In this document: positions 2,950-20,293 of the stretch, piece after piece
Position numbering within the stretch: position 1 is the first letter of the stretch
How the letters are laid out: the number at the start of each line of letters is the position of its first letter
Origin: a virus
IMG/VR virus record: IMGVR_UViG_3300044982_000101
Coordinates: 1 to 33,884 of that record
DNA: 33,884 nucleotides
Direction: 5' to 3' (one strand)
Program-made: the position numbers and the translations under genes
The notes under the pieces: model-generated
What the model was told of the DNA's origin: nothing
What the model saw: only the letters and a program-made list of their open reading frames with translations
The model's database searches: none

Positions 2950-4539
2950 TTACGGCGCGCCCATCACGGTGATATAAACCCCCACCGCGCTGTCGCCCAC
3001 ATTCACCGTGCATTGCGTGGTCGAGGGCGCGCTCGCCAGGTTGCAGCTTCCGGTGTCGCCCGATCCGCCGGAGAGCGGCGTGCACATGCAAATGGGCGCG
3101 CTCGAGTACGCGATCGGATAGGTGAAGGTGAACGTTCCGCCGCCGCTTGAGGGCATGGCGCTCGATTGAATCAGGGGCGGATCGGCGCCGTTGGCAATCT
3201 GGCACCAGCTGTTGGTTCCATCGCCATGACAGGTCGCCACCGTATAGGGCGCGAGCGTGATCGAGGCTTGGCCGTTGACGTTGCCGGAATCGCCCGCGAG
3301 AGTGAGCGTGTGCGCGGTCGCGTCGGTGCGCGTGATCTCCCAGTAGTTGCCCACGATGGCATGCGGAATCGAAACCGTGAAACTGCCGCCGCTGGCCGAG
3401 ACATGGATCTTGCAGTCGGATGCGAGCAGAGTGTACGTCGAGGTTTTCGAGGTGACGGCGCAATTCCAGCCCGCGAACGTGGGATCTCCGTTGAGCGCGG
3501 CGGTCGCTCCGGTGCCGGTGGTCGCGCTCACTGGGGTCGAGTTGATCTCGAGCACGTTGCCATTGACCGCGGCGTTCAAGGTTTTGTTCTGGAAGACGTC
3601 GGTGGTGAGCGCGCCGACCACCTGGTCCTGGCCGGCGTCATTGTTGTCGAAGTTGAAGCGATGCGTCACCGCATCGCACCACATCAAATCTTCGCCGAGA
3701 ACCCCGGCCACCACTCCGTCCTCGACGCATCCAAATCCCCCATTCAACAGGGAAAGCCCGCTGACCGTGAGCGGCCCGAGATCGACGATCGAGGTTGCGA
3801 TGATGGAGCCCACGAAAATGCTGCCGCCCGAAACGCAAGGACCGACCGCGGTGGCGTTGGTCCCGTTGTAGATGAACATCTGCTGGGTGACGGAATTCGC
3901 CGCCGAGTTGATGTTGCAGCCGCCCACCGAGTTCGCCGGCCAGGAGAAGGTGTGTCCTCCGCTTCCATCCTGGGTGATCTGAAACACTACATAGCTCGGC
4001 GGGGTGACGCCGACGAAAGTTAAAGGCTGCGCGGATGCATTGCCGGTAAGGGTGATTTCAAAGAGCTGATTCTGGGCCGCGACCATGAAGGCCGGCGTCG
4101 CGGAGTAGGGAACGATGGTGGTGAGCGTCGTCGATCCGCCGCCCACGCCGTTCAGGAATCCGATGGTCGAGCCGGTGCTGCAGTTCGATCCGCCGGCCGA
4201 TTTCACCACCAGCGAATAGGAGACGCCCGCCTGCAGCCACATCGAATAGGTTCCCGATGCGGACAGGATCAGCGGATTCGCGTTGAGCGTGGTCCCGGTG
4301 TAATCGGTGTAGGTCGCAAGCGGCGTGGAAGTCGCAACTTCGTAGCTGAAAATGCAGCCGAAGGCCAGCGGCTGACCGTTCCCGTTGAAAAGCTGCTGGA
4401 TGGGGAGCGGGGAGAGCACGACCGGCGTCTGGGCCTGGCCGCGGCAGCAAAGTACCCAGCACGACAGTAACAGCCAGGTAATCAGCCAGGCGTGCCATGG
4501 AAAGCGGGGCCGCGGTGAGCGAGAATTACAAGTGAGCAT
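2950..4539 (-). CDS. Putative tail fibre, with an oligomeric neck domain near the N-terminus
   Basis: 529 residues from the ATG at 4537-4539, chosen over the ATG at 4549-4551 because GGAG lies 6 bases before it. It begins with a basic segment and a hydrophobic run (WLITWLLLSCWVLCCRGQAQ), so it carries a signal peptide or anchor. Residues of about 45-125 form a domain I recognise from many phage fibres: LFNGNGQPLAFGCIF, ATYTDYTG, NPLILSASGTYSMWLQAGVSYSLVV. In relatives this reads as NGxPLxGGKIYTY...ATYTDxTG...NPxVLDxxG...W and sits near the virion-binding end. The end (GTFTFTYPIAYSSAPICMC to VYITVMGAP) is a Cys-rich tip. The 5' end overlaps the divergent plus-strand gene at 4538 by two bases. 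Sure that it is virion or fibre related; its target is unknown. Confidence 0.75.
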   Translation of the reverse strand: MLTCNSRSPRPRFPWHAWLITWLLLSCWVLCCRGQAQTPVVLSPLPIQQLFNGNGQPLAFGCIFSYEVATSTPLATYTDYTGTTLNANPLILSASGTYSMWLQAGVSYSLVVKSAGGSNCSTGSTIGFLNGVGGGSTTLTTIVPYSATPAFMVAAQNQLFEITLTGNASAQPLTFVGVTPPSYVVFQITQDGSGGHTFSWPANSVGGCNINSAANSVTQQMFIYNGTNATAVGPCVSGGSIFVGSIIATSIVDLGPLTVSGLSLLNGGFGCVEDGVVAGVLGEDLMWCDAVTHRFNFDNNDAGQDQVVGALTTDVFQNKTLNAAVNGNVLEINSTPVSATTGTGATAALNGDPTFAGWNCAVTSKTSTYTLLASDCKIHVSASGGSFTVSIPHAIVGNYWEITRTDATAHTLTLAGDSGNVNGQASITLAPYTVATCHGDGTNSWCQIANGADPPLIQSSAMPSSGGGTFTFTYPIAYSSAPICMCTPLSGGSGDTGSCNLASAPSTTQCTVNVGDSAVGVYITVMGAP

Positions 4540-4765
4540 GAACGACTCCATCGAATACGAACTCGTGAACTGGCAGCCGCGCGAGGTCTGGAAATGCCAG
4601 GGCGGCTGCGGGAAATATCGTCATCGCAACGTGGTGAAAGGAATTCTGCCGGCCGTCTGTTGTGGAGTGCCTGCCAAGCTGATCGATCGCTACAGCCAGC
4701 CGATCGCCTTCACGGTGTCGGAACCACTTCTGGGCTCGGCGCCGGCATCCGGCGAACCACGATAG
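4538..4765 (+). CDS. Small Cys-rich counter-strand protein (75 aa)
   Basis: Unknown function. The ATG at 4538 shares two bases with the divergent start of the fibre gene (4539), and the 3' end runs 56 bases antisense into the end of the ejection-protein gene (stop at 4710). So it exactly fills the gap between two minus-strand genes, as do six other plus-strand genes in this region. The protein has CQGGC near residue 20 followed by VCCG near residue 40, which could bind a metal, and a Tyr/Trp-rich N-terminus (IEYELVNWQPREVWK). Unlike most of its counterparts it lacks a clear TANNNT box 6 bases before the start, and no Shine-Dalgarno sequence is clear. It is real by position and composition rather than by homology. 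Confidence 0.55.
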   Translation: MNDSIEYELVNWQPREVWKCQGGCGKYRHRNVVKGILPAVCCGVPAKLIDRYSQPIAFTVSEPLLGSAPASGEPR

Positions 4766-6695
4766 GAATCCGTTCAATCCCCGCCTGATGCGCTGCCAGG
4801 GCACGGCCGCGGCCATCTACGTCGATGATGTTGTTTCCCGCGTCTCTGGTTTCCATGACCGGTTCGACTGCCTGGCCGTTCTTGAATCGTTTCGTCATGT
4901 CGGCGATGGCCGCCGCGCTCTCTTCTGGCTTCATGCCCCGCGTCTGTTCGCGACCTTCGGCGAAACTTTCCGGATCCACGCCCCAGCGGTCGAGCAGGTC
5001 TTTCGGGGCGGCTGTGGTCATTACGCCCGCGCCAGGCTCTGGGGCGGCTTCTATTGCGCCGGGCTGGGCATTGCCGGCAGCGACCGCCTTCCTGGCCCGT
5101 ACGAAGTCGAGACTGTCCTGCAGCTGTTGGGTGAGATCGGGCTCAGCCGTCCCTGGCGCGGCCGTCTCCTGTTTCGCGATCCGACCGGCGATGCCTTTCA
5201 GCCGCTCGAGCAGCTCGTCGCCGCTCGGGCCTGGTTCAGCAGCTGGCGTCTCGGCCGCGGCTGGTTTCGGGGCAGGTTGGGCGGCTGTCGTCTCGGTTGG
5301 GGCGGGTTTCGTCTCGACCGGCGCCGCGGCTTGCTGCTTCGCGGCGACCACATCGGAGAATTCCGGGCGGCCGGTGGCGGGGTCGGTGACGATCGACCGC
5401 GGCTGGCTGAGACCTTGCGCCTGCGTCTGCACTCGGTCGTTGGGACCGAGAGCGGTCGATTGCTTGACTGTCTTTGCTTTCGGTTTAGGGAGCGGTGCGG
5501 CTGGCTCTTCCGCGGGGGCTGCACCTTCCGCTGGCGCTTCGTATTGTGGCGCGACTTCTGGGCCACCGGTCACCCGATTCGGCAAGCCGAAGCCTTCGCC
5601 GGGGATGCGCACTTGGGGCAGAATTTCCCGCCCTGCCATCGCGCCTGCAGCGCCTCCGACTTCCGCACCTACATGTCCGCCGAGATATCCGCCAACGGCC
5701 GCGCCCGCGGTGCCGCCAATTGTTCCCGGAGCTTTTGCGAGTCCTTTGTTGATTCCGCGGACGGTCGCCCGAACCGCTGGCGCTGCTCCCTCCACAACTG
5801 CGGGAACAGCCCTCGCGACTCCCTCCGTTCCGATTGCAGTGAGCGCTTGTCCCGCGCCTTCCGCCGCGGTTTTCTCCGCCGCATTCGCATAAGTTCCCGC
5901 CGGATCGGCCGATTGATTGATGTCATGAATCGCCGCGGCTACGTGCGTGGCATCGGAGGCGGTGTGCCCGAGGCCGCGCAACATCCGGTAGGTCTGCAGC
6001 GCCGGAGGGCCGCCGATAACGAAAACACCTTTCTCGGTTGCGTCCTGGGGCAGCGTGCCGACAGAATCGTAAACGCCCTTGATCGCGTCCTTCGTGCCCT
6101 GGGCTACATCGTTCAAGCCGTGGATGGTCGCGCCGACCACTCCCGCGGGCCCGGTATAGCCCATATATTCTTTGTCGGTTTTCTCCGTGGGCTGGGTGAG
6201 AACCTGCATCACCGAGGGCTGGGCGGTTTTCGTCGTCGTCGTCCCCGCCGCGGGTTCGTACTTCGAGAAATCGATCGAAGTGCCAGCCGGTGCTGCGCTC
6301 TCGTACTTGGAGAAATCAATCGGCTGTGCGCTCATCTTGTTTCCGAACTTCGCCCCGACTTCGCGCCCCATCTCCGGCTGAACATCCGCGGCCGCGGGAT
6401 TCGACACATCCATCTGCGGCGTGCCCGACCAGTTGCCGCGCTGAAACGAAACTCCTTCGGGCAAGCGCGTGGGATCGATCGGAGCGTCGGTGTCCGCCCG
6501 CGGTTGAATGTGGGTTGGGTTGGGGAAAACCGGACCATTGAAATTCGCGGGTGCGCCCTGGTCGTCGTCTTCGAGGCCTGCCGCGATGCGCTGTTGTTTG
6601 GTGAGCGCCGCATATTCGGCATCGGTGAGCGGCCGCCGGCGTTGGCTTGGTGGGAGAGTTTGATATTTCTCCCAGCTGATCGTCGCGGTGCTCAC
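4710..6695 (-). CDS. Large ejection-type virion protein with C-terminal ParB-like domain
   Basis: 661 residues, GTG start at 6693-6695, overlapping the previous stop by GTGA. N-terminal 160 residues are low-complexity and hold two copies of IDFSKYExAA (about residues 122-145), a short repeat I associate with internal virion proteins. Residues about 320-360 are a glycine zipper (GGTAGAAVGGYLGGHVGAE), suggesting membrane insertion. A Pro/Ala/Glu-rich linker follows. Residues about 565-655 resemble a ParB/sulfiredoxin-like fold: LLDRWGVDPESF, then NNIIDVDGRGRALAAHQAG and IPIVVRR, with VDGRxRALAA in place of the GxHRxxA box. Position after two other ejection-type genes fits P22 gp16/gp20 or T7-like internal core proteins, which enter the cell with DNA. 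Whether the ParB-like part is active is unknown. Confidence 0.7.
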   Translation of the reverse strand: MSTATISWEKYQTLPPSQRRRPLTDAEYAALTKQQRIAAGLEDDDQGAPANFNGPVFPNPTHIQPRADTDAPIDPTRLPEGVSFQRGNWSGTPQMDVSNPAAADVQPEMGREVGAKFGNKMSAQPIDFSKYESAAPAGTSIDFSKYEPAAGTTTTKTAQPSVMQVLTQPTEKTDKEYMGYTGPAGVVGATIHGLNDVAQGTKDAIKGVYDSVGTLPQDATEKGVFVIGGPPALQTYRMLRGLGHTASDATHVAAAIHDINQSADPAGTYANAAEKTAAEGAGQALTAIGTEGVARAVPAVVEGAAPAVRATVRGINKGLAKAPGTIGGTAGAAVGGYLGGHVGAEVGGAAGAMAGREILPQVRIPGEGFGLPNRVTGGPEVAPQYEAPAEGAAPAEEPAAPLPKPKAKTVKQSTALGPNDRVQTQAQGLSQPRSIVTDPATGRPEFSDVVAAKQQAAAPVETKPAPTETTAAQPAPKPAAAETPAAEPGPSGDELLERLKGIAGRIAKQETAAPGTAEPDLTQQLQDSLDFVRARKAVAAGNAQPGAIEAAPEPGAGVMTTAAPKDLLDRWGVDPESFAEGREQTRGMKPEESAAAIADMTKRFKNGQAVEPVMETRDAGNNIIDVDGRGRALAAHQAGIERIPIVVRRMPAPSPEVVPTP

Positions 6696-8335: not shown

Positions 8336-8338
8336 AAC

Positions 8339-9028: not shown

Positions 9029-9045
9029 AGGTTATTCCGGGGTGT

Positions 9046-9051
9046 TAAGGT
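9046..9051 (+). promoter_or_regulatory. -10-like box of the DUF4177-like gene
   Basis: TAAGGT with exactly 6 bases to the ATG at 9058. ATGACA at 9022-9027 could be a -35 at 18-base spacing. Confidence 0.5.
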
Positions 9052-9057
9052 GTCGAG

Positions 9058-9228
9058 ATGAAAAAGTTCGAGTACCGCTACGTGCAGCCCTCGGCTTATT
9101 CCGAACAATGGCTCAACGAAATCGGAGCCGAAGGCTGGGAATTCGCGTGGGCCAACAATCAGGGCGGCTTATGGTTTAAGCGCGAGATTCCACAGATTCA
9201 TCCTGACGCGATAAGAGATCGGGTTTAG
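9058..9228 (+). CDS. DUF4177-like small protein on the counter-strand (56 aa)
   Basis: The sequence MKKFEYRYVQ, then WLNEIGAEGWEFAW and GGLWFKRE, fits the DUF4177 pattern (KKWEYKVV...LNELGxEGWELV...FKR), a small domain of unknown function common in bacteria and phages. It begins 30 bases from the divergent ejection gene and overlaps the last 53 bases of the convergent acetyltransferase gene. A TAAGGT box lies exactly 6 bases before the ATG, and ATGACA lies 18 bases before that box, so it looks like a leaderless gene with its own promoter. Likely cytoplasmic. It probably acts in the host or lysogen rather than in the virion (inference). Confidence 0.75.
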   Translation: MKKFEYRYVQPSAYSEQWLNEIGAEGWEFAWANNQGGLWFKREIPQIHPDAIRDRV

Positions 9229-10098: not shown

Positions 10099-10104
10099 CA
10101 GGTC

Positions 10105-11562
10105 TCAGTTCTTCTGCACCGTCGCCTCAAAAAACGCATTCGTGAAATACCACGGATAGGGATCGGACCAGGTGACTTCCCACACTCGCTTGCGGGCGCG
10201 GCCAAGCATGCGTTTGATCACGCGCTTTCCGTACTGGCCCTGCATCCCCACGCTCAAGAAATATGTCTTCGACCAGGTCTGCCCGCTGTCGTTCGACCAG
10301 CGCAGCATGAGCTGAGGCGGGCGCGGGTTGCCGTCGCCATCAAGGAGTGGCACGCCGGGCGCGAGTCCGGTTCCCAGCACGAACTCAATCTGCTCGTAGT
10401 AAATCCACTTGTTGGCTTTGCCCGTCGTCGGGGTTCGCCGCCAGCCGCGGATCGTGTTGCCGAAGTCGGTCAGATATTTCGAGCTCAAGTCGTAAATATT
10501 TCCCGAGGCCCAGTCGCCGACGAGATGCTTGCCGAAGTTGTAGGTGTGGCAGATGGCCCGATCCATGATGTAGGTTCCGTTGGCCTCGACCCAGAAGCCG
10601 CGCTGGTGCCAGAGTTGCGCCGTGATGTCGTACACCCAGCTCTGATTCGCGGTGGGGAAGTCGATCACCCAGAAGGTGTGCCCGTTTTCCTGATAGGTCC
10701 AACCCACGGCATCGTCGTAGACCGCGAAGCGCTGCCAGGCCAGCTCGATCGCGTGCGTCGAAACCCGCTGCCCGTTGTAGCCGTTGGCAAACATGGCGAC
10801 CAGGGCGCCGCGCTCGTCCTGCGAGAGCCAGAACACCACTTCGTCGGCCTGCACCATGGCGAAGGTCGCGCCCGAGCCCACTTCGGCGAACGCGCCCTGA
10901 ATCGGAATGAAGACCGGGAAGCCCGCGCCGCCGTTGTAGTACCACACGCTCTTTTTTGCCGAGGCGAACTGAATCTGGCGGTGGTCCGAGATCATGGAGA
11001 CGATGTTGTCGGGGAAATAGCTCAGGGTGGCGATGTTCAACCCGTTCCATGTGGTTGCGTCCTCTAAATTCGATTGCTGGAAGGTGTGCGAGCCCTGCAA
11101 GGTCGCGATAATATAGCCGTCGCAGAAGTCGATGGTGAGCACCGGGCCGTTGAACTGCGCCATGTTCACGGCGACGAAGACGTTGGTCGAGAGCGTGAGC
11201 ACGAACAGGTTGCCGTTGTTCGAGACCACGAGCTGTGTTTCGTTGGCGGTGATCTTGGTGATCAGGCTCGGCGGCGCACCGAGAGAGCCGCGATTGATCA
11301 TCGCTCCGGATGCGTCGAGTTCCCATAAAAACGAAGCCGCGAAAAAGGTCCGGCCGTTGACCGTGAATCCGCCGGGCACCGCGCCTTCCGGAAGCTGCGC
11401 GAAAATCTTGCGGCCGGGCGTTTGCAGCAGCGCTTTCGGCGTGGCGGCGTTTTCGCTTCCCGACACTTCGACGTAGCAGTTCATCGCCAGCTCGTCGTCG
11501 ATCACCGGCGAGATCGCGGTGTAGCTGGGGCCAACAAAACCGAAGGGAGCGGCTTGCGGCAT
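10105..11562 (-). CDS. P22 gp10-like tail hub / packaged-DNA stabilization protein
   Basis: 485 residues from the ATG at 11560-11562; an earlier in-frame start at 11610 would run into the counter-strand gene. The pattern is that of the P22 gp10 beta-propeller: an N-terminal block (SYTAISPVIDDELAMNCYVE, then ALLQTPGRKIF) matching the P..vn.y.E...gk..L...pG opening, repeated blades with VWYYNGGAGF, VVFWLSQDERG and THAIELAWQR, and a strongly conserved end: MLRWSNDSGQTWS, GQYGKRVIKRMLGRARKRVWEV, TWSDPYPW. In P22 the protein closes the tail channel after packaging and joins gp4 to the tailspike or needle. It sits two minus-strand genes from the gp4-like gene, as expected. Confidence 0.88.
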   Translation of the reverse strand: MPQAAPFGFVGPSYTAISPVIDDELAMNCYVEVSGSENAATPKALLQTPGRKIFAQLPEGAVPGGFTVNGRTFFAASFLWELDASGAMINRGSLGAPPSLITKITANETQLVVSNNGNLFVLTLSTNVFVAVNMAQFNGPVLTIDFCDGYIIATLQGSHTFQQSNLEDATTWNGLNIATLSYFPDNIVSMISDHRQIQFASAKKSVWYYNGGAGFPVFIPIQGAFAEVGSGATFAMVQADEVVFWLSQDERGALVAMFANGYNGQRVSTHAIELAWQRFAVYDDAVGWTYQENGHTFWVIDFPTANQSWVYDITAQLWHQRGFWVEANGTYIMDRAICHTYNFGKHLVGDWASGNIYDLSSKYLTDFGNTIRGWRRTPTTGKANKWIYYEQIEFVLGTGLAPGVPLLDGDGNPRPPQLMLRWSNDSGQTWSKTYFLSVGMQGQYGKRVIKRMLGRARKRVWEVTWSDPYPWYFTNAFFEATVQKN

Positions 11563-11567
11563 GGGAT

Positions 11568-11573
11568 TAGAAT
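11568..11573 (+). promoter_or_regulatory. -10-like box of the two-segment membrane peptide
   Basis: TAGAAT with 6 bases to the GTG at 11580. No good -35 at 17 bases. The divergent tail-hub ATG is 5 bases from the box on the other side. Confidence 0.5.
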
Positions 11574-11579
11574 TGCGGG

Positions 11580-11726
11580 GTGAAAATCTTCGTTCTGATC
11601 TCGACGGCAATCGGCTCGTTGGTTGCGATTGCAGCGCGGCACGACATCACCGAGTTCGGGGGATGGGTGCGTTTGGGAATCACGCTCGGATTCGCGGCGA
11701 TGCTGATCGGATTGGTCATGCGTTAG
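11580..11726 (+). CDS. Tiny two-segment membrane protein on the counter-strand (48 aa)
   Basis: Too short for most gene callers. GTG start at 11580 with a TAGAAT box exactly 6 bases upstream (11568-11573), like a leaderless gene. The protein has two hydrophobic segments, IFVLISTAIGSLVAIAA and WVRLGITLGFAAMLIGLVM, joined by a polar turn RHDITEFGG: a helical hairpin as in small holins. It starts 17 bases from the divergent tail-hub gene and its stop TAG overlaps the opposite TAA at 11723 (shared TTAG), filling the gap exactly. A holin-like or inner-membrane moron role is inferred. It could be a superinfection-exclusion peptide instead. Confidence 0.7.
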   Translation: MKIFVLISTAIGSLVAIAARHDITEFGGWVRLGITLGFAAMLIGLVMR

Positions 11727-12010
11727 CTTTTGTGCGGCCCGAGGATCACGGGCACTGCCTCAGTCAGGTGCTTCGCCAGAAAATCCGCTTCACTCAAACT
11801 CAGATCGGCCCGCGGAACTTTCACGGTGTGCCACACCGCCGCCTTTTTCGGATCGCGATGTTCTTTGGGATCGTGCAGGCGCACCGTCAGCGTCAGCAGG
11901 TCCGGACCGGGCGGCTCATCGACGAAGATGATCTTTTTCGCGTCCGGATCCCAGACGCGCATCTTGCCGGGGGGGACTTCGAGCGGGGGAGCGGGGACGA
12001 GATCAGGCAT
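11723..12010 (-). CDS. Small unknown protein in head-tail region (95 aa)
   Basis: The ATG at 12008-12010 (MPDLVPAPPLEVPPG) is taken as the start; the in-frame extension up to 12142 has out-of-frame composition. Pro-rich N-terminus, then VWDPDAKKIIFVDEPP, LTLTVRLHDPKEH and a charged end LSLSEADFLAKHLTEAVPVI. Unknown family, cytoplasmic and soluble-looking. It lies between the gp4-like adaptor and the gp10-like hub and ends overlapping the convergent membrane peptide by four bases. A TAGAATTC box lies 4 bases before its ATG on the plus strand, the same arrangement seen at the starts at 11562 and 13267. A virion assembly role is possible but unsupported. Confidence 0.6.
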   Translation of the reverse strand: MPDLVPAPPLEVPPGKMRVWDPDAKKIIFVDEPPGPDLLTLTVRLHDPKEHRDPKKAAVWHTVKVPRADLSLSEADFLAKHLTEAVPVILGPHKS

Positions 12011-12147
12011 GGAGTAGAATTCGCTTTTGGGGTAGTAGCGCTTGGTCACCGACCGCAAAGGGGAGCGATCCCCAGACTGCTGAGAGTCGCAAATGCGGAA
12101 GCACTTCAGCGCGAGGCGGTCAGCAGCCGTCAGCCCCGTCAAATTTT

Positions 12148-12468
12148 ATGAACCGCCGCAACTTCCTCTCCCTGTTTTCCGCTGGTGTCGCTGGCCTCGC
12201 GCTGGAGCAGGCGATCCCGCTGGGGCGGGTGTGGAGTTTCCCGAAAAAGATCGTGATCGCGCGACCAGTTGAAGTCGGAGCATTTTCAGACGGTGAAGCC
12301 TTCGCGGTTCTGAACTCGGCGAACGAAATATGGTTCTACGATCAAACCGGAAAACTCTGGAGATGGGGCAACACGCCGAAACCTGTCTGTGTCGGCCATC
12401 CGATTGATGTATCAAAAATCAACTTCACTGCGGCCTTCCCCCCGGATAATTCCCATACGCCCAGTTGA
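12148..12468 (+). CDS. Twin-arginine signal small protein, copy 1 (106 aa)
   Basis: Begins MNRRNFLSLFSAGVAGLAL: an RR-x-F-L Tat motif, a weakly hydrophobic core and a likely cleavage zone at EQAIPL. It shares a block with the protein encoded at 13284, ALEQAIPLxRVWSFPKxIV, so the two are paralogs, then diverges. The mature part is small and beta-like: EAFAVLNSANEIWFYDQTGKLWRWG, ending PPDNSHTPS. It is exported folded in most Tat systems, so it would act in the envelope. The 3' end overlaps the adaptor gene by 44 bases. It lacks a TANNNT box 6 bases before the ATG, but a TAGAAT lies at 12014, giving a possible 120-base leader. Function unknown; a lysogenic-conversion or exclusion role is a guess. 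Confidence 0.75.
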   Translation: MNRRNFLSLFSAGVAGLALEQAIPLGRVWSFPKKIVIARPVEVGAFSDGEAFAVLNSANEIWFYDQTGKLWRWGNTPKPVCVGHPIDVSKINFTAAFPPDNSHTPS

Positions 12469-13267
12469 AATCCTGTTTCTGTCCGCTCGGTTTTGCTCTT
12501 GGCATCCCTGCATCCTGGGTCACAATGCGCGGCGACTTCGCGTTGTTCCCGAACACCGCCGCCCTCGCCTGCAAGGCTGAGTTCGCAAGCTCCGGAGAGC
12601 CTTCGCGCTGCGCTCCGGGCAATAGCAACTCGGCCAGCGTGAGCATGAGCGCCGCGCGGTAGGCCGGAGGCAGCGTGCCCGGTCCTCCCGGTCCGCCGAT
12701 GGGGTCTTGAATCGAGACGAACTGCGCGATCATTTGCCAGATTTCGAGGCGCACCTGCCGCGAGATGTTGCACACCGGCCAGAAGTAAATCGAGCCATCG
12801 GGCGAAGTCGGATCGTAGTAGAGATCGGTCGGGACATTGGTTTGGATGTTTTTGACCTGCTGCGCCGCCCACCATTGCCGGTCGCGAATGTTGATCGGCA
12901 GATCGACCAGTCCGGGATCGGAAAGCGAAACCACGTTTTGCAGCAGCAGATTCGCCGATTCGATGCGCACCGGGCGGGGCTGGCCTTTGGTCGAGAAAAT
13001 TGCCGTCGCGCTCGGCCCGAAGCTCACCGGATTCGTGTTGGCGGGCAGGCTGTACACGTTGAAGGCGTAGGAATAGACGTAGAACTGCTTCGCCTGCCAC
13101 ACATCGATCAGATAGTTCAGCTTGCGGAAGGCCCATTGCGCTTCGTCGTTGCCGGGGGTTTCGCCGGGCGGGACCGCGCCGATCTCGATCAGCGAGTCGG
13201 TGATCAGGTCCAGCACCGTGTACGACAACGGGGCCGGGGGATTGACGGGAGGGCCGATGGGAGACAT
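12425..13267 (-). CDS. P22 gp4-like head-to-tail adaptor
   Basis: 280 residues. The N-terminus is the signature of the gp4 tail accessory family: TVLDLITDSLIEIGAVPPGE, then AFRKLNYLIDVWQAKQFYVY, matching the LDLIxxALxxIGVxxxGExxxxxxxxxALxxLNxLLDxW opening. The middle (VRIESANLLLQN, RQWWAAQQVKNIQTNVPTDLYYDP, GSIYFWPV) fits the central beta domain, and LPPAYRAALMLTLAELLLPGAQRE is the conserved helix near the end. P22 gp4 binds under the portal as the first head-completion protein and has a lysozyme-like fold. Longer than P22 gp4 (166 aa), as in many environmental relatives. The start at 13265-13267 is back-to-back with Tat copy 2. Confidence 0.85.
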   Translation of the reverse strand: MSPIGPPVNPPAPLSYTVLDLITDSLIEIGAVPPGETPGNDEAQWAFRKLNYLIDVWQAKQFYVYSYAFNVYSLPANTNPVSFGPSATAIFSTKGQPRPVRIESANLLLQNVVSLSDPGLVDLPINIRDRQWWAAQQVKNIQTNVPTDLYYDPTSPDGSIYFWPVCNISRQVRLEIWQMIAQFVSIQDPIGGPGGPGTLPPAYRAALMLTLAELLLPGAQREGSPELANSALQARAAVFGNNAKSPRIVTQDAGMPRAKPSGQKQDFNWAYGNYPGGRPQ

Positions 13268-13271
13268 GGGT

Positions 13272-13277
13272 TAGAAT
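13272..13277 (+). promoter_or_regulatory. -10-like box of Tat protein copy 2
   Basis: TAGAAT with 6 bases to the ATG at 13284; the divergent adaptor ATG is 4 bases from the box. TTGACG at 13242-13247 is too far upstream (24 bases) to be a normal -35. Confidence 0.55.
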
Positions 13278-13283
13278 TCGGAA

Positions 13284-13691
13284 ATGGATCGGCGACGATT
13301 TCTTCAGTGGCTCGGTTTGGGAGCTGGAGCGGTTGCGTTAGAGCAGGCGATCCCGCTGAATCGTGTCTGGTCGTTCCCGAAAAATATCGTTGTAATGTCG
13401 CCGGGCGCTATTCGGTTGGAGCCCGGAGAGGCGGTGCAGTTCATCAAGGCGTGGGATCCAGAGCGAGCACGAATGTTATGCCGACTCGACGTTCTATTTG
13501 GCTTCAATCCTTATCCCGATTCGCTGGCGATCACAAACCAGAGCGGAAGAGCGATCACAGTGCCGCTGCCTGAACACTTTCCCCACGTTCCACCACTAGC
13601 GGTCGAAATGCTCTGCGCCGAACTGAAGGAGCGCGGCGAACTCTATCGGCCGACTGGAATGTTCGGCGTACACTATTCTCCCGAGGGTTAG
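13284..13691 (+). CDS. Twin-arginine signal small protein, copy 2 (135 aa)
   Basis: Starts MDRRRFLQWLGLGAGAVAL: Tat motif RRRFLQ, hydrophobic core, then EQAIPLNRVWSFPKNIVV, nearly the same as copy 1 at 12148. The rest (ERARMLCRLDVLFGFNPY, LAITNQSGRAITVPLPEHFP, YRPTGMFGVHYSPEG) is unrelated to anything I know and differs from copy 1, so a shared export and anchor segment carries different cargo. A TAGAAT box at 13272-13277 sits exactly 6 bases before the ATG, implying a leaderless mRNA. It is 16 bases from the divergent adaptor start, and its TAG overlaps the opposite TAA at 13688 in a shared TTAG. Confidence 0.8.
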   Translation: MDRRRFLQWLGLGAGAVALEQAIPLNRVWSFPKNIVVMSPGAIRLEPGEAVQFIKAWDPERARMLCRLDVLFGFNPYPDSLAITNQSGRAITVPLPEHFPHVPPLAVEMLCAELKERGELYRPTGMFGVHYSPEG

Positions 13692-14074
13692 GCCTTCGCG
13701 TCGTCCCCTTCATCGAGCGCCGCCAACTCTTCCGCCGACATATTCTCTTCCCGCGGCGCGAGAATCGCTTTGGCCGCGATGCCGGAGTTCCGGTTGATCT
13801 TGGAATAATCGTGATCCGGCGAAGGCGTCAGCTTGAATCCGCGTTTCAAGGCAGCGGCTTCCTGTTTTTTCGCATCCGGCCCGGCTTCGATTTTGAGCAC
13901 GCGGCCATTTCCGTGGTGATACACCAGTTTCGGAAATTCGTTTTGCGGGTCGCGCGGGTTGTAGGCCTTTTTCGGCGGATTGTTGATGTCGGTGATGAAG
14001 ATGTCGTTCGAAGGCTGATCGACGGTGAAGTGATTTTCGGTGATGGTGCGAACGCTTTGGGCTGCGGGTGCCAT
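13688..14074 (-). CDS. Small unknown head-region protein (128 aa)
   Basis: The start at the ATG 14072-14074 is supported by AGAGGA five bases upstream; an in-frame ATG at 14203 directly follows the U6 of the tRNA-like element and has no ribosome site, but cannot be excluded. Sequence: MAPAAQSVRTITENHFTVDQ, then FITDINNPPKKAYNPRDPQNEFPKLVYHH, then KLTPSPDHDYSKINRNSG and an acidic tail EENMSAEELAALDEGDD. Unknown family. The second half (KLVYHHGNGRVLKIE..AAALKRGFKLTPS) recalls short proteins encoded next to coat genes in metagenomic podoviruses, but I cannot name it. Probably virion-associated by position. Confidence 0.6.
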   Translation of the reverse strand: MAPAAQSVRTITENHFTVDQPSNDIFITDINNPPKKAYNPRDPQNEFPKLVYHHGNGRVLKIEAGPDAKKQEAAALKRGFKLTPSPDHDYSKINRNSGIAAKAILAPREENMSAEELAALDEGDDAKA

Positions 14075-14206
14075 AGATTCCTCTTGGTGTTTTTGTGCGA
14101 GCAGATTTTTACGGGTGCGGGTGTCGCGCGGGACTCCGGTCAGATCGAATTCGAGCGGCCAGCGTTCCCGCGGCGCTTTCCGGCTGGCTTCGTTCAGGGG
14201 CATGGG

Positions 14207-14293
14207 AAAAAAGACTGACGGCGGCTGCCCTGTTTCATGGCAAGACCTCCGCTCAATTGCGGCGCTCTATATCTGAGCTACGCGCCGTCAGTC
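14207..14293 (-). ncRNA. tRNA-like cloverleaf closed by an 11-bp stem and followed by U6
   Basis: Read on the minus strand: an 11-bp perfect closing stem (GACTGACGGCG with CGCCGTCAGTC, 14283-14293 and 14213-14223) encloses three hairpins and is followed by six Ts (14207-14212). Arm 1 GCTC/GAGC with a 7-base loop is preceded by TA, as in positions 8-13 of tRNAs. Arm 2 CCGC/GCGG has a 6-base loop AATTGA. Arm 3 TGCC/GGCA has a 9-base loop. The linkers are 1 base and AGGTCT, as in a tRNA variable region. It is not a normal tRNA: the D-loop lacks GG, the T-loop lacks TTC, the anticodon loop is one base short and the closing stem is too long. It may be a degenerate tRNA, a structured regulatory RNA or an elaborate terminator between two virion genes. 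Confidence 0.6.
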
Positions 14294-14306
14294 AGTTCAC
14301 AGCAAC

Positions 14307-15254
14307 TTAGTAAAACGCGAAGTACGGTCCCTGCAACGTCGTATACGTCGTCGAGGGAGTGATCGTCGCCGGGATGGTGGCGTAGGTCTGCCCGGTATAG
14401 ATCTGGGTCAGAGTGCCGGCGTTGCCGTCGGCGGTGGCGATCAGGTTCAGGGTGTCGGACGAGGACTGCGATTGCGAGCAGCCCCAGAACCAGGCCGGCC
14501 CCACCGCGAAATATTGCGCGGTGAAGGCAAACTGCTGGTACTGGCTGGCAGTGCCGGTCGTGGTGGTCGAGCCGGAGTTCGCGAGCAGGTTTCCCGCCGC
14601 ATCGTAGAGAATCACGTTGCGGTGCCCGTTGGCCGTGGTCGCCCCGTTCAAAATCCACAACCCCGTCAACAGTTTGTCCTGGGGCAGATAGATTTGCGAA
14701 CAGTACATGCTGGTGTTGGTGGTCGCGGTCGAAGTTCCGACCCCGGTCAGCACCGCCCCGCCCGGCGAAGGCGAGAACAGAATCGCCGGCGACTGGCCTT
14801 CGACGCCGCGCACCCATTTGCCGTTATAGCAATCGGAGTACACGTTGTTGGTGACGTCGATGTAGGGCAGGATCAGCGACGAGCGGGTGCAACTGCCGAA
14901 GGGATAACCAATCGGCGTCTGCGACTGGAAATAGTACGGAGGTCCGTACCAGACCACCGCGCCCGAAGGATGCGTCGAAACCCAAGTGCTCGGTCCGGCG
15001 CCGCGCGTCACGGAAACAGTTTTCGCCACGGTGTTGACCGCGTTCACAAAATCGGCTTCGCCTTCGATGTAGAGCATGGTCGCGTTGGCCGTGATGCCGG
15101 TCACCGACGCCAGCACGAAGGTGTTCGACTGCGAGCTGGAGCTGGTGACGGCGGACGACAGCGTGGTGAAAGAGACGTAGGTTTGCGCGAACGACAGCGA
15201 GGCCGCCAGGAGCAAACCACAGAGAAGCAGCGAATTGCGTAGTGTGTTTTTCAT
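14307..15254 (-). CDS. Signal-peptide-bearing virion protein next to the coat gene
   Basis: 315 residues from the ATG at 15252-15254; the longer frame to 15284 lacks a ribosome site. The N-terminus MKNTLRNSLLLCGLLLAASLSFAQ is a textbook Sec signal peptide with an S-F-A cleavage box. A domain follows in which FVLASVTGITANATMLYIEGE then VAKTVSVTRGAGPSTWVSTHPSGAVVWYGPP recalls small phage virion domains with the pattern vxsxxGxxvxVxRG...aHxsGAxV. The rest is beta-rich with paired Cys (CTRSS, YSDCYNGKW, MYCSQIYLP) and ends TTYTTLQGPYFAFY. Immediate position after the major capsid protein suggests a head decoration or fibre protein. The signal peptide makes this odd. Function unknown. Confidence 0.65.
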   Translation of the reverse strand: MKNTLRNSLLLCGLLLAASLSFAQTYVSFTTLSSAVTSSSSQSNTFVLASVTGITANATMLYIEGEADFVNAVNTVAKTVSVTRGAGPSTWVSTHPSGAVVWYGPPYYFQSQTPIGYPFGSCTRSSLILPYIDVTNNVYSDCYNGKWVRGVEGQSPAILFSPSPGGAVLTGVGTSTATTNTSMYCSQIYLPQDKLLTGLWILNGATTANGHRNVILYDAAGNLLANSGSTTTTGTASQYQQFAFTAQYFAVGPAWFWGCSQSQSSSDTLNLIATADGNAGTLTQIYTGQTYATIPATITPSTTYTTLQGPYFAFY

Positions 15255-15320
15255 GGTTGTATGTGCCCGGAGGAAAATCACCAAATCATGTTGATGTGAT
15301 ATTCGCCCGAAGCTCTCCTT

Positions 15321-16580
15321 TTAGGCTCCCAGCAATCCAACGCAAGCGTTGTCCTGGTAGAGGTTGCCGAAGCCGCCCACGGTGTCGAAGCGGTTGATCT
15401 GCAACGAGTGGTAAGCGTCCCAGGCTTTCACGAAACGCACCGGAATGCCGGTGGCCTTGTCTTCGGCCTGCGAACGGGCTTCGACCGCTTTCGGCAGATA
15501 GAAGCGCATGCCGACGATAGCGAAGGCGAACGGGGTCAGCGCCAGGCCCACGGTGCCGGTGGCTCCGTTGGGGTTGGGCGTGCCAGGGAAGAGCGTGAGC
15601 GCCGCGCCGTTGACCGGCAGGTTGTCCACGTTCTGATACTGGCTGGGGTTCTGATCCGCTCCCGGCCCATAGATGGCGGGCAGGAAGTTCAGGACATCCA
15701 CTCCACCACCCACAGCGGTGAGAGCCACGGTGACGGTGAAGGTCTGCACTTGCACCGGTCCCGGAGTGCGGCGCGAGCGCGGGTTGACCAGGTTCACGTT
15801 GGCGATGCCGAACTTATCGCCCACGTTGAAGGTGTCGCCCGCGGTGGCGGTGATGGTCAGCGAAGTTCCCGACTGGCCCGCGCCGTTGACGGTGACGGCC
15901 GCGGCCCAGGTGCCGGCGGTGTGCGAGTACAGGTTCTGCTCTTCAAAGACATCGAAGGTTTTCAACTTACCCATCGAGCCTTCCTTGAAAGCCTCGGTGA
16001 TGGCATCGGTCGGCTGGAAAAGAGAAGTGACCGGCGTATTGATGGAGTTGGTCTGCATCGAAGACGAAATCAATGCAGCGCGTTTCTTCGACAGGTACGA
16101 TCCGGCCTTTTGCAGCAGGCGAGCGCGGGCCTGGTCGAGAAACACGATGGAGGTCGGATCGGTGCCGAGCGAGCCCACGATTTGCGAAGTGTTGTTCTTG
16201 GCAAACAGCGCGGCGCGGGAATCCCACTCGTTGGCGAGCTGCACGCCGGCCGGAGCCAGGTATTGCTCGCGAATTTCTTCCTCGGAGCGCTCGGCCTTGA
16301 CCGCGGCTTCGTAATCGTCCCACTGGAAATCGATGCCGAAGGGCTCGTCCAGCGAAATCGTGGTCGAAATGCGGTTGATGCCTTGCGGGTTGTATCCGAG
16401 GCCGTTGCGGATGGTGAACTGTTGCGGGAACTTGACCTGAATCGTGGTGCCGACGGCCCACGCCTTCTCATAGTCTTTTTCCCAGTCGTGGTTGAAGTAT
16501 TCGGCAACCTTCAGAGCGTTCTTGAGGTTGCGCAACACCTCCATCGAAATCCAGGAGGTGTTCAGGAATAGGTTGGGCAT
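15321..16580 (-). CDS. Major capsid protein, P22 coat family
   Basis: 419 residues, close to the 430 of P22 gp5. The N-terminus NLFLNTSWISMEVLRNLKNA, then VAEYFNHDWEKDYEKAWAVG and VKFPQQFTIRNGLGY is the hallmark of the P22 coat family (xxLTxxWIxxExLRxLxNxLxxaxxVNrDYxxxF...GdTVxirxP). Then an SEEEIREQYLAPAGVQLANEWDSRAALFA helix and an HK97-type core with an inserted beta domain around residues 225-330 (AVTVNGAGQSGTSLTITATAG, TFTVTVALTAVGGGVDVL). The end (VRFVKAWDAYHSLQINRFDTVGGFG) matches the family's terminal strand. GAGGAAA from the end of the scaffold gene lies about 10 bases before the ATG. Very secure call. Confidence 0.93.
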   Translation of the reverse strand: MPNLFLNTSWISMEVLRNLKNALKVAEYFNHDWEKDYEKAWAVGTTIQVKFPQQFTIRNGLGYNPQGINRISTTISLDEPFGIDFQWDDYEAAVKAERSEEEIREQYLAPAGVQLANEWDSRAALFAKNNTSQIVGSLGTDPTSIVFLDQARARLLQKAGSYLSKKRAALISSSMQTNSINTPVTSLFQPTDAITEAFKEGSMGKLKTFDVFEEQNLYSHTAGTWAAAVTVNGAGQSGTSLTITATAGDTFNVGDKFGIANVNLVNPRSRRTPGPVQVQTFTVTVALTAVGGGVDVLNFLPAIYGPGADQNPSQYQNVDNLPVNGAALTLFPGTPNPNGATGTVGLALTPFAFAIVGMRFYLPKAVEARSQAEDKATGIPVRFVKAWDAYHSLQINRFDTVGGFGNLYQDNACVGLLGA

Positions 16581-16586
16581 GGAAGT

Positions 16587-17741
16587 TTATTTCCTCTTGA
16601 GGCGCGCGAGTTCCTTGGCGTTTTGGGTGCGCTGGTAGGTCTCGAAATCGCCATCGTCTAGGGCTTGCTCCACCGCGTCTTTGGCGACGGTTCCCTGGCC
16701 GGAAACCTGGTGCGGTGGGCGCGAAGCGCGGGTGACGGGTCGGACAGAGGAAGAATCGTCTGTTGGGGATTCAGCCTGGGAACTGCGCGAAGTGCGGGAA
16801 GCGGTCGAAGCGGCCAGCGTGTGCGCGAGCACGGCCAGCCGCGAAATCTGCTCGACGTTCGTGAGCTGATAGCGCGTGCCGTCCGGGATGCGCGCGAAAA
16901 TTGCTTTGACCGCCGGATCACTGACGTTTTTCATCAGGTGATACAGCAATCCCGCGCCCCGGTCCGGCTGCGCCAGCAGGAAGTTGTCGATATGCGAGCC
17001 CGTAGTGTAAAAGATCGGGCTTCGTCCATCGGCTTCCTTGGCTTCGATGACCGACTTGACGGTCTGGTCGTAATCGGGGTGAGCGGCGCGCACTTTCTCG
17101 ACGTGTTCCGCCCGGCTCTTGTCGATGGCCGCGAATTCCTGCTGCTGTGCCGTCTTCGTCGACTCTTCCCGAAAGCCCTTGATGGCCTCTTCGCGATTCC
17201 ACTTGGCATGCGCCGAGAGGAAATCGTTGAGAGTCTTAAATTTCGGCTTTCCGGTTGCGTCCAGGTCGTCGATCTTTGGTTCCGCAACAGCTTTTCCGGC
17301 TTCGGCCTGCGTCTCAGTGGCAGCGGGCGAAGGCTGCGCGGTTTCACTGCGTCGTTCGGGCTGAGACGATTGCGATTTCAGGCGGGCGATTTCGGCGCGG
17401 GCTTCCTTGAGTTCACGTTCGCGTTTTTCCCAGCGCGTTTCCCTGCGTGGTTCTGTCCTCTGCGTTTGTGCGGTTGCCGAGGCCGCGGCTTTGCTGGCGT
17501 CGTCCTGGTCCTGATCTTGCTGCTCGGACGCTGCCGAAGCGTCCTGTTTCGCTGGCGGAGTTTTCTCTTTCCCGGTGGACGATGCCGCGTCGTCCGGTTT
17601 CTCTGACTTGAATTGCCCTGTGAGGCGATAGTGTTCATCGTCCGGCAGGAAGCCGGTTTCGATCGCTTCATCGAGCGATTGCGGGGTACTGAGGACTTCT
17701 TCGGCTGCCGAGGCCGAATCGTTGCTGACGGTTGTGCTCAT
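16587..17741 (-). CDS. Scaffolding protein
   Basis: 384 residues, acidic and highly charged, rich in Ala, Glu, Lys, Gln and Ser, with long helices (REKRERELKEARAEIARLKSQ coiled coil around residues 105-130) and few aromatics, as in P22 gp8 and its relatives. The C-terminus is basic and helical (YQRTQNAKELARLKRK), matching the helix-turn-helix by which gp8 binds coat protein. A central folded part (LNDFLSAHAKWNREEAIKGF, HPDYDQTVKSVIE, GAGLLYHLMKNVSDPAVKAIFARIPD) resembles scaffolds of environmental podoviruses. It stands directly between portal and coat, the expected order. AAGGAA is 9-10 bases before the ATG. It should guide procapsid assembly and leave before packaging. Confidence 0.85.
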   Translation of the reverse strand: MSTTVSNDSASAAEEVLSTPQSLDEAIETGFLPDDEHYRLTGQFKSEKPDDAASSTGKEKTPPAKQDASAASEQQDQDQDDASKAAASATAQTQRTEPRRETRWEKRERELKEARAEIARLKSQSSQPERRSETAQPSPAATETQAEAGKAVAEPKIDDLDATGKPKFKTLNDFLSAHAKWNREEAIKGFREESTKTAQQQEFAAIDKSRAEHVEKVRAAHPDYDQTVKSVIEAKEADGRSPIFYTTGSHIDNFLLAQPDRGAGLLYHLMKNVSDPAVKAIFARIPDGTRYQLTNVEQISRLAVLAHTLAASTASRTSRSSQAESPTDDSSSVRPVTRASRPPHQVSGQGTVAKDAVEQALDDGDFETYQRTQNAKELARLKRK

Positions 17742-17790
17742 GGGATTGTGTTCCTTGGTGCGCTCTGACGCGGCGCGGGCGAGGTGGAGC

Positions 17791-17796
17791 TAAACT
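17791..17796 (+). promoter_or_regulatory. -10-like box of the counter-strand gene before the portal
   Basis: TAAACT with 6 bases to the GTG at 17803. No clear -35. Confidence 0.45.
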
Positions 17797-17802
17797 TGGG
17801 GT

Positions 17803-18045
17803 GTGGCCGACGAGAAGAATTGGCAGTCAGGCAATCAACAGCCGGCTGCCTACCTCGAATTTCCGATGAAGTTCACACGCGCAGGCCTGGAACCGCTTTC
17901 CGATCAGGCGCTGGCAGAACTGCTTCGCAGCGAAGACGCAGCTGATGTCGCGGATTTTCATCTGGTGATTACTGAGGTCCTGGCGCGGCTGTTGGTGCGC
18001 CCGGTTGCCCCGGCTGCAGGCTCGGGCTCTGCGCCGCCAAAGTAG
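17803..18045 (+). CDS. Small unknown counter-strand protein between scaffold and portal (80 aa)
   Basis: GTG start at 17803 with a TAAACT box exactly 6 bases upstream (17791-17796). It is the only gene in the gap between the scaffold start (17741) and the portal stop (17969), and its last 77 bases run antisense to the portal's 3' end. The protein is soluble: MADEKNWQSGNQQPAAYLEF, then a helical core LEPLSDQALAELLRSEDAADVADFHLVITEVLARLL and a low-complexity tail APAAGSGSAPPK. The tail is encoded opposite the Pro/Gln-rich portal end, which would produce such composition by chance, so the real product may be effectively the first 65 residues. Unknown function. Confidence 0.6.
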   Translation: MADEKNWQSGNQQPAAYLEFPMKFTRAGLEPLSDQALAELLRSEDAADVADFHLVITEVLARLLVRPVAPAAGSGSAPPK

Positions 18046-20191
18046 CCAGCTGCTGTTGCTGCTGCGCGTCGTGCTGGTGCTCCATCGCCTGCAAACCAGC
18101 TTCGTGCGCCGCGGTGTGGTTCTCTTTCCAGTAGGTTTCGTACATTTGCGCACGTTCACTCTGGCTCTGCGATTTCGCGCTGATCTCGGCAATCAGAATC
18201 TTGATGTCATTCGCCAGCTGCGCCCGCTGGTTGTCGCCGTCTTCCTTCATCTGCTGCATGATCAGCTTGGTTTGCTGTTCGAGAACTTTTCCGGCGCGTT
18301 CGAGGTGCAGTGCGGAGTTCTCCTGGATGGCCTGCTGGAGTTGCTGCTGCAGCTGTTGGATCGCGGCCTGCGCTTGCGGGGGCATATTGGGATCGGGCGG
18401 CGGCGGATCGAAGACATCGGCGATCTGCTGGCCCACGGGGCCGAGCGTCGGGCGCATGCGGATTCCGAGCGCGAACACTTTTGCGGCGGGCGTTCCCGGT
18501 TGTGGCAGGTTGGCGATGTTCTGAATCAGCGTGTCAACGAAATCGTCCTGCTCTTCGCGTTCCGACTGGTAGCTGGGTCCGGTGTCGATGGTCACATCGA
18601 ATTCACCCTTGCCGGTGTGCAGATGCCCTTCGTCGAGGCCCTGTACTTCATAAGCTCCCGTGGTATCGTCGATCGGGTGTGAGGTATTGCCAACCAGTTG
18701 CATCGTGGATCGCTTGCCGTCGGGCGAGGAGATCGGCATCTCGCGCTGGGTGTCGAGCACGGGTGTGATGAGTTCGTTGATCTGCCAGCCCATGTTGTGC
18801 AGGAAGCCGTTTTCGTAGCGATCGACAAACTGAAAACTCCCCAACGACTCCATGTCGTCGATCTTTTCAAGAGCTACACCGGATTTCTGGTTGCGGCGTT
18901 GCGCGGCATCCGGAAGGGGAGTGATCCCCATGGCGGCCTGCACAGCGCGCCCAGCTGCATCTTTCGCGACTTCCCACACCTGAAAATTCGGCGCCCATTG
19001 CGGTCGTGCCGGAACCGGCAGTACGGTTTGCGTGGGCTGATCAATGACGATATCGGTCTGCAAATAGGCGTGCGGCACTTTCGTGACTTCGCCCCAGGCT
19101 TCTTTGTCGGTTTCAAATTGTCCGACGTAGCCGACGAAGGGTGATTTCGGAATCTGTCCCGCTTCCTCGCACTCCCCCGACGCCAGGTAGTCGAGCAGCA
19201 TCTGCGGATCGCGGGCGAAACGCACCATCGAAAGCAACTGACGCTTGGGCTTGCCGCCTTCGGTGGTCCAGCGCTCGAGCCCGAAACACGGGATGATCGG
19301 AATACGCGTGCCGTCCCAGGGAACCTTGTCGAGAATTTCTAACCCGTTGGTCATGTACTGAAACACTTCCGGGGTTTCCACATCGCGCTCACGGATGATC
19401 TCGACCGTATCGCGCGGGGACAGGAATCGCCCGCCTTGCCCGCGCGCGCCTTTTTGCAGCTCGTCTTCCCAGATTTCAGTCGGCCCGGCTTTGCCGCGGA
19501 TCAGCAGCTTCGTGCGGAGTTGCGTGTGCACCTTCCAGTACTCGGCGACCTGCAAATATTTGTCTTTGATCCAGTCCGTGATCGTCGAATCATTCAAATC
19601 CTGATCGCCGAAGTCGGTAAGTCGTGCGCCTTTGTATTTTTTCTTGTACTTGTCCTTCGGCATCAGATCGAGAAAGAAGCCGTCGAGAACATCGCTCCCG
19701 CTCGGTTGTTTGTAATAAGGCGAGAGCAGCACCGTGTCCGGGTTCATCACCGGCTTGATCAGGATTTCCAGGTCGAAGCCGTCACCCACATACTCCGTGC
19801 GGATCACCGCGAAGCCGTAGCTGCGCTCGATCATCGACTGGAAAGCATTCAAATAAATTGGCTGGGCCTGCGAACGCTCTTCGATGCCCATAATGGCGGC
19901 GCTGCGTTTCTGGGCATCCTGGTCGTTCGCGCCGTTGCCCTTGGGGATCGCTTTGATGGAGCGTTTCGATTTGCGGACGTTGCCATTGACCTGGGCGAGA
20001 AACTGATTCAGCTGGTCGAGGTGAATGCAGGGGCGCCCGGAACCTTTGCGGGCGTCGCGGTCCTCGTCCGACCAGGGGCCTTCGGGGGAGATGGCGCGCA
20101 TGTCCTCCGCCGCTTCATCGCGGATTTCGCGCCAGGCGTCACGATAGTCCTGGTAGGCGTCGCGAATTTCTTTGGGGGTAGGGTCGGCCAC
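17969..20191 (-). CDS. Portal protein, P22 type
   Basis: 740 residues (P22 gp1 is 725). GTG start at 20189-20191; no strong Shine-Dalgarno. N-terminal helices (KEIRDAYQDYRDAWREIRDEAAEDM, GRPCIHLDQLNQFLAQVNGNVRKSKRSIKAIP) are the P22-like portal opening, with the WSxExxxxRxxxGRPxxxxNxxxxxV pattern. Then ERSYGFAVIRTEYVGDGFDLEILIKPVMNPDTVLLSP and ERDVETPEVFQYMTNGLEIL fit the wing, and KIDDMESLGSFQFVDRYENGFLHNMGWQINELI the stem/crown helices. The last 150 residues are a long Gln-rich coiled coil (QAAIQQLQQQLQQAIQENSAL), like the P22 barrel, ending in a Pro/Gly/Ala tail. The portal forms the dodecameric DNA gate and binds terminase and gp4. Confidence 0.92.
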   Translation of the reverse strand: MADPTPKEIRDAYQDYRDAWREIRDEAAEDMRAISPEGPWSDEDRDARKGSGRPCIHLDQLNQFLAQVNGNVRKSKRSIKAIPKGNGANDQDAQKRSAAIMGIEERSQAQPIYLNAFQSMIERSYGFAVIRTEYVGDGFDLEILIKPVMNPDTVLLSPYYKQPSGSDVLDGFFLDLMPKDKYKKKYKGARLTDFGDQDLNDSTITDWIKDKYLQVAEYWKVHTQLRTKLLIRGKAGPTEIWEDELQKGARGQGGRFLSPRDTVEIIRERDVETPEVFQYMTNGLEILDKVPWDGTRIPIIPCFGLERWTTEGGKPKRQLLSMVRFARDPQMLLDYLASGECEEAGQIPKSPFVGYVGQFETDKEAWGEVTKVPHAYLQTDIVIDQPTQTVLPVPARPQWAPNFQVWEVAKDAAGRAVQAAMGITPLPDAAQRRNQKSGVALEKIDDMESLGSFQFVDRYENGFLHNMGWQINELITPVLDTQREMPISSPDGKRSTMQLVGNTSHPIDDTTGAYEVQGLDEGHLHTGKGEFDVTIDTGPSYQSEREEQDDFVDTLIQNIANLPQPGTPAAKVFALGIRMRPTLGPVGQQIADVFDPPPPDPNMPPQAQAAIQQLQQQLQQAIQENSALHLERAGKVLEQQTKLIMQQMKEDGDNQRAQLANDIKILIAEISAKSQSQSERAQMYETYWKENHTAAHEAGLQAMEHQHDAQQQQQLATLAAQSPSLQPGQPGAPTAAPGPQ

Positions 20192-20194
20192 GGC

Positions 20195-20200
20195 TAAGAT
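20195..20200 (+). promoter_or_regulatory. -10-like box of the 28-residue membrane peptide
   Basis: TAAGAT with 6 bases to the ATG at 20207; TTGGGG at 20172-20177, 17 bases upstream, is a possible -35. Confidence 0.5.
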
Positions 20201-20206
20201 TCAGAA

Positions 20207-20293
20207 ATGAGAGATGGATTGTTGGGACTCGCGCTCGGCGCGGTGCTCGTGATTGCGATTGAAGTTGCGCGGCATCTCTACAACCGTTACTGA
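20207..20293 (+). CDS. 28-residue single-pass membrane peptide on the counter-strand
   Basis: MRDGLLGLALGAVLVIAIEV then ARHLYNRY: one hydrophobic helix of about 17 residues with a basic/aromatic end, the shape of a tiny inner-membrane peptide. TAAGAT at 20195-20200 sits exactly 6 bases before the ATG, and TTGGGG lies 17 bases before that, a plausible -35. It begins 15 bases from the divergent portal start, and its TGA overlaps the opposite gene's stop (20287). A 28-codon frame alone would be weak evidence. The box, the exact fit of the gap and the likeness to the six other counter-strand genes make it credible. Confidence 0.6.
   Translation: MRDGLLGLALGAVLVIAIEVARHLYNRY

Follow-up and report, generated by a model that had tools for sequence, protein, structure and literature searches.

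Promoter-anchored antisense slots with exchanged cargo, some of it resembling coat-protein pieces, in the late operon of a P22-like phage

On sequence evidence, the gaps between the virion genes of the phage described here are leaderless, promoter-anchored antisense moron slots, a design that combines a fixed promoter and location with exchanged cargo. Many of the cargos read as chimeras in which a short leader (a Tat-like signal or a Zn ribbon) is joined to pieces of the P22-type coat protein. The explanation we favour, with somewhat better than even confidence, is that the slots are expressed from the prophage and that some of their cargos interfere with coat assembly of related phages. The boxes, slots, swaps and coat pieces described below are sequence-level results.

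The window (the whole stretch of DNA analysed, 33,884 nucleotides) is a single 33.9-kb IMG/VR virus contig of a temperate P22-like podovirus. Its minus-strand series encodes the terminase large subunit, portal, scaffold, P22-type coat, Hc3-type head closure, ejection proteins and tail genes, and its gene content marks the phage as temperate, with a tyrosine integrase encoded at 26012-26557 (Pfam E 2e-17). Relatives were collected as 44 loci through a coat search and 52 through a search with the Tat-like leader described below, the overlapping sets being deduplicated; the gene order is common to about 70 contigs once duplicates are dropped. These relatives are uncultured contigs and the E-values come from small sets, with shuffled sequences as control. 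An annotated phage collection (50,697 records) held no match to the region, and a search with the s5 protein (see below) was likewise without a match. GTDB yielded one matching contig only, L098, within a Betaproteobacteria MAG, and the host is therefore still unsure.

The first-pass annotation had described seven small plus-strand frames in gaps of the minus-strand series, their stops running into the upstream minus genes. All seven are present where it placed them, the 3' overlaps of 56, 53, 4, 44, 4, 77 and 7 bases are as it gave them, and the regular interleaved series of counter-strand accessory genes that it proposed recurs in relatives, as seen in a slot table across contigs. The frames are:

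s1, 4532-4765, plus strand: Cys-rich small protein in the tmp/tail gap, with its start at GTG 4532 or ATG 4538
s2, 9058-9228, plus strand: 56-aa protein in the gap between the acetyltransferase-like and ejection-protein genes, identical in the closest relative
s3, 11580-11726, plus strand: 48-aa membrane peptide, identical in L002
s4, 12148-12468, plus strand: Tat-like leader protein, a member of the Tat-like family without a leaderless box
s5, 13284-13691, plus strand: Tat-like leader with a piece like the C-terminus of P22-type coat (coat HMM)
s6, 17803-18045, plus strand: 80-aa cargo of the portal/scaffold slot, replaced in L046
s7, 20207-20293, plus strand: 28-aa membrane peptide of the g237/portal slot, with a box upstream

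PHROG and Pfam scans of s1 to s7 gave no firm match. There is little behind the label "DUF4177-like" once attached to s2 (Pfam E 0.59); its better match is a PHROG whose function is unknown (E 8e-4). Relatives of s2 and s3 were found solely in the closest relative.

A feature that the annotation had not foreseen is that each slot tends to carry a predicted leaderless promoter of its own. A weight matrix was built from 45 Tat-like genes of other contigs, excluding the window, and scored on 1152 candidate starts in the window. The motif is an extended -10 box, TAnnnT, typically caTGtTAgAaT, which ends 6 nt 5' of the start codon. The starts of s5, s6, s2, s3 and s7 rank 1, 2, 3, 5 and 7, and the first T of the box is at -12 in all five:

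9046-9051, plus strand: -10 box TAAGGT before s2, score 8.0, rank 3 of 1152
11568-11573, plus strand: -10 box TAGAAT before s3, score 7.5, rank 5 of 1152
13272-13277, plus strand: -10 box TAGAAT of s5, at 17 bp from the start of the divergent gene g280, score 9.9, rank 1
17791-17796, plus strand: -10 box TAAACT before s6, shared with L046, which has other cargo, score 8.4, rank 2
20195-20200, plus strand: -10 box TAAGAT before s7, score 7.3, rank 7 of 1152

Transcription from a box ending 6 nt 5' of the start codon should yield an mRNA that has this codon at its very 5' end, and s2, s3, s5, s6 and s7 should thus be leaderless genes with their own promoter. The prediction is weaker for s1, which may start at GTG 4532 instead of ATG 4538 (motif score 6.4 vs 2.0), and which ranks 8 of 1152 provided that GTG is its start. 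The s4 gene has neither a leaderless box (score -8.1) nor a boxed cistron upstream, and its want of a box counts against the favoured explanation. The layout of the box equals that of bacterial leaderless genes, in which TANNNT lies about 12 bp before the start codon and which occur in all three Acidobacteria genomes examined, at a mean of 13% of genes (PMC3160421); phage antisense accessory genes are not part of that account.

The signal recurs among the relatives. Across all contigs, 69 of 2299 antisense gap starts score at least 7, 49 of the 69 being non-Tat, compared with 0.20-0.32% of sense or in-gene starts, so that antisense gap starts are 10-15 times richer. Shine-Dalgarno sites at Tat starts exceed the background only slightly, with no true excess (at least four matching bases in 12/51, vs 16% at random). 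The boxes sit between divergent starts, and 28 of the 69 boxed starts lie 13-19 nt from the divergent structural start, as opposed to 5.3% of controls, a spacing at which the sense start codon provides the TG of the extended -10. The Hc3 gene probably starts at ATG 11562 in preference to TTG 11610, and ATG 11562 is 17 bp from s3. At least seven Tat genes that lack a box follow a boxed first cistron and are coupled to it through ATGA or TGATG, and a nearly identical box precedes three different first genes in L003, L007 and L040. Tandem pairs of Tat-like genes with an ATGA overlap were noticed in L014 (13400-14304) and L041 (10166-10932). That the frames are shadow ORFs without function is highly improbable: s6 and s7 have no protein relatives, and among the related contigs their frames are confined to the window, but their starts rank second and seventh with a motif learned elsewhere, and swapped, boxed frames are found in other slots.

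The exchange of cargo behind a kept box is most directly seen in the closest relative, L046, which aligns with the window at 96% over 10105-17799. The alignment breaks between the s6 box and the s6 start and resumes at 17996; L046 retains the box and encodes a Zn-ribbon protein instead (L046 13593-13790), and it has an additional cassette in the Hc3/acetyltransferase gap. The portal/scaffold slot holds a leaderless-type antisense frame in 19 of the 35 contigs with a gap of at least 60 bp, most with a GCTAAA-type box and with differing proteins. In the g171/g280 slot the box is constant, the start lies 15-18 bp from that of the divergent gene, the stop overlaps by exactly 4 bp in 6/7, and the cargo is of four kinds. 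A leaderless antisense ORF occupies the acet/ej1 slot in all seven contigs with a gap of at least 60 bp, and in L020 a different 25-aa membrane peptide stands behind the box of the g237/portal slot. Across relatives, position, box and promoter (L046 and the slot table) thus recur more than cargo does, s6 and s7 being found in the window only. A further mobile antisense family, KARDIVxGWP..YYHEGQQRM, was observed in two different gaps of L008, L011, L014, L028 and L068.

Morons of lambdoid and Mu-like phages lie between late genes, have their own promoter and are variable, and usually there are one or few per phage. The genes described here are likewise extra genes between conserved phage genes of the late region, they vary among close relatives (window versus L046), and predicted promoters stand at five starts, with a weaker one at s1 and none at s4. 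They differ in comprising at least five slots with one start-codon promoter design, a kept box and swapped cargo.

It could be argued that the antisense transcripts, and not the proteins, are functional and tune structural-gene mRNA, as the 3' overlaps with neighbouring genes (55 of 80 slots in the relatives' table) and the position of the boxes between divergent starts would allow. We consider this quite unlikely, as promoter-sparing cargo swaps retain little antisense beyond short tails, and constraint at the protein level in s1, the Tat leader and the coat pieces indicates that the products matter. The s1 family (9 contigs, pattern DSIEYEL..REVWKC..RHR..CCG) has a pN/pS of 0.37; the dN/dS-type comparison envisaged in the first-pass annotation accordingly points to protein-level constraint for s1, and such constraint is also present in the Tat leader.

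The commonest cargo is the Tat-like family, of which there are 55 distinct members, s4 and s5 being paralogues over their first 40 residues. About 37 N-terminal residues are kept and the C-termini are variable. The designation of s4 and s5 as Tat proteins agrees with the twin-arginine consensus, since an alignment of 14 leaders shows RR and F to be invariant and a hydrophobic stretch to follow; Pfam TAT_signal scores s5 at 16.7 bits, below its cut-off of 22.7. Every one of the 47 placed Tat-like genes runs antisense, and the g280/Hc3 gap holds 30 of them.

The source of the variable C-termini was sought by building HMMs for 91 clusters of ORFs in these contigs and running them against the 55 distinct Tat C-termini. 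The coat HMM matches 25 of the 55 at E<0.1 and 20 at <0.001 (shuffles 0.1), and HMMs of other head genes match 0-4 each; about half of the C-termini have no recognised source among the ORF-cluster HMMs. Two sense genes of the window belong to this comparison:

15321-16580, minus strand: major head protein (P22-type coat), the source family of the pieces, PHROG 283 E 6e-47
21837-22349, minus strand: g170, a sense gene near the terminase whose C-terminus is like coat 349-394, coat HMM E 0.0016 in the scan of 14,203 small ORFs described below

An AF2 model of the coat made with 34 relatives (pLDDT 81; a model from 16 sequences, with pLDDT 35, was discarded) matches the P22 coat 8i1v with Z 31.9 and rmsd 3.1 over 373 residues, and the coat profile matches 5l35 (E 6e-13), consistent with the P22/Sf6 coat fold with its I-domain. 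Residues about 46-83 of s5 correspond to coat 372-408 (coat HMM domE 1.7e-7); further coat matches are 83-120 in L067 (7e-10), 3-57 in L039 (4e-10), 32-60 in L003 (2e-8) and 246-274 in L040 (1.5e-5), and in L022 and L052 two coat pieces are joined out of order. The C-terminus of s4 weakly resembles an Hc3 piece (domE 0.03), and pieces of g280, portal, ejection protein and Hc3, weaker than those of coat, are suggested as well. Terminase pieces seen by eye in the Tat C-termini of L054, L057, L066, L069 and L094 found no support in PHROG or Pfam, and C-terminal tails such as TAAFPPDSSHTPS and YSGAPPG..QLKS, which arise simply from reading the 3' end of g280 in antisense, were left uncounted.

Among 14,203 small ORFs, coat pieces are confined to the cassettes, to sense genes of the g170 type and to truncated real coats; shuffled small ORFs contained none. 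The g170 family is found elsewhere at L030 4508-5029, L035 4354-4881 and L026 4735-5277, its members ending in a segment like coat 349-395, and non-Tat antisense cassettes with coat pieces carry Zn-ribbon leaders in L031, L035 and L036. The same codon is used at 179 of 381 identical residues (0.470), where codon usage predicts 0.468 and coat-coat pairs give 0.508; this fraction, at the level of codon usage, indicates that the coat copies are old and have been kept as protein. The 27 best pieces map to coat 3-60, 83-135, 240-274 and 349-408. None of these 27 falls in 61-82, 136-239 or 275-348, and simulated pieces are detected equally everywhere.

These properties bear on the notion that the genes are ordinary host- or envelope-directed morons, their coat likeness being phage sequence reused at gene birth without a role. 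We hold this to be credible though distinctly the less probable view. The high diversity of the cargo (Zn ribbons, membrane peptides, the s1 family), the shortness of the pieces and the lack of coat likeness in some C-termini would all fit; yet 40-70% of residues are mostly kept while synonymous sites are saturated, the pieces come from four coat segments and never from three others, and coat pieces are joined to unrelated leaders, both Tat-like and Zn-ribbon. Envelope- or host-directed products, as the small genes had been taken to encode, are consequently not the best reading for the s4 and s5 family with its coat pieces; the membrane-peptide and Zn-ribbon cargos probably have other host or exclusion roles.

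Two further roles for the coat pieces were weighed. Host sensors of phage structural proteins besides Tha exist. The pieces might act as decoys that occupy host defence sensors for coat or other head proteins and so shield the phage, an idea with which coat as the main source, the faint traces of pieces from portal, Hc3 and g280, and known sensors such as Tha (PMC11087260) would agree. It is unlikely, as full-length coat is produced in far greater amount and expression early or in the prophage would be more apt to trigger a sensor than to block it. Very unlikely is a use of the pieces as tags that bring small proteins into the head for delivery to the next cell: coat-derived segments could insert into the lattice and a Tat-like leader could act after delivery, but expression opposite the late operon has the wrong timing for packaging, and the tags vary among close relatives.

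In the favoured explanation, that of prophage-expressed slots with some coat-directed cargos, host RNA polymerase would transcribe the slots while the late genes are silent, either in the prophage or early on, and in the lytic phase the convergent transcription of the late genes would damp them. Coat pieces would enter or cap coat-subunit contacts, and the head assembly of related superinfecting phages would be spoiled; this last proposal, by analogy with Tab (see below), is tentative and we give it less than even weight. Somewhat more doubtful is the broader possibility that exchangeable capsid-fragment chimeras amount to virus-derived resistance, silenced during assembly of the carrier by their antisense placement. 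A Tat signal would export the protein and coat assembly is cytosolic, which counts against coat interference, and the share of Tat C-termini with no recognised source, about half, also speaks against the favoured explanation. If the target were foreign coats only, own coats should match worse, and the mixed ranks of own versus other coats (mean 0.34) count against this; the own coat is the best match in L051, L081 and L093 and a poor one in the window, L003 and L030. No direct precedent for capsid-fragment interference in phages was found in the open-licence literature. Natural proteins bearing conserved pieces of the major coat would make such interference between phages directly testable.

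There are precedents for the arrangement. Tab of Pseudomonas prophages lies opposite the late operon, between packaging genes, has its own promoter and blocks virion assembly; it is a single gene with an anti-Tab partner, and its target is the tape measure protein (PMC10884400). The slot genes resemble Tab in arrangement, being likewise small, set among the late genes on the other strand and furnished with predicted promoters of their own. They differ in occupying many slots, in having leaderless boxes and in the exchange of their cargo, some of it with pieces derived from coat. Tha/Ith of Staphylococcus prophages forms a noncontiguous antisense operon whose promoter is constitutive and points towards a phage operon (PMC11087260). 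Overlapping antisense genes facing a phage operon are common to both, whereas Tha/Ith sets immunity against inhibitor in the lysogeny module and the slots set virion genes against accessory genes. Tab shows that a prophage gene set against the late operon under its own promoter is able to block virion assembly, and Tha/Ith is an instance of antisense exclusion between phage operons. Cluster K mycobacteriophages have a start-associated 13-bp sequence (GGGATAGGAGCCC), mostly in one orientation and in part with inverted repeats (PMC3203893), which resembles the present case as a common start-codon signal before many different small genes; what is different here is that the signal is a -10 box at the spacing of leaderless genes and that it runs antisense to virion genes. 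A start-codon -10 box, antisense orientation and a gap between virion genes together provide a rule for spotting many overlooked small phage genes.

Two minor observations were made by eye. The tmp/tail2 gap of L098 holds a leaderless-type cassette whose product looks like a receiver-type domain. In the window, the minus-strand genes at 969-2912, 2950-4551 and 14307-15284, two tail genes and the gene adjoining coat, have apparent secretion signal peptides at their N-termini, which is odd within a virion operon.
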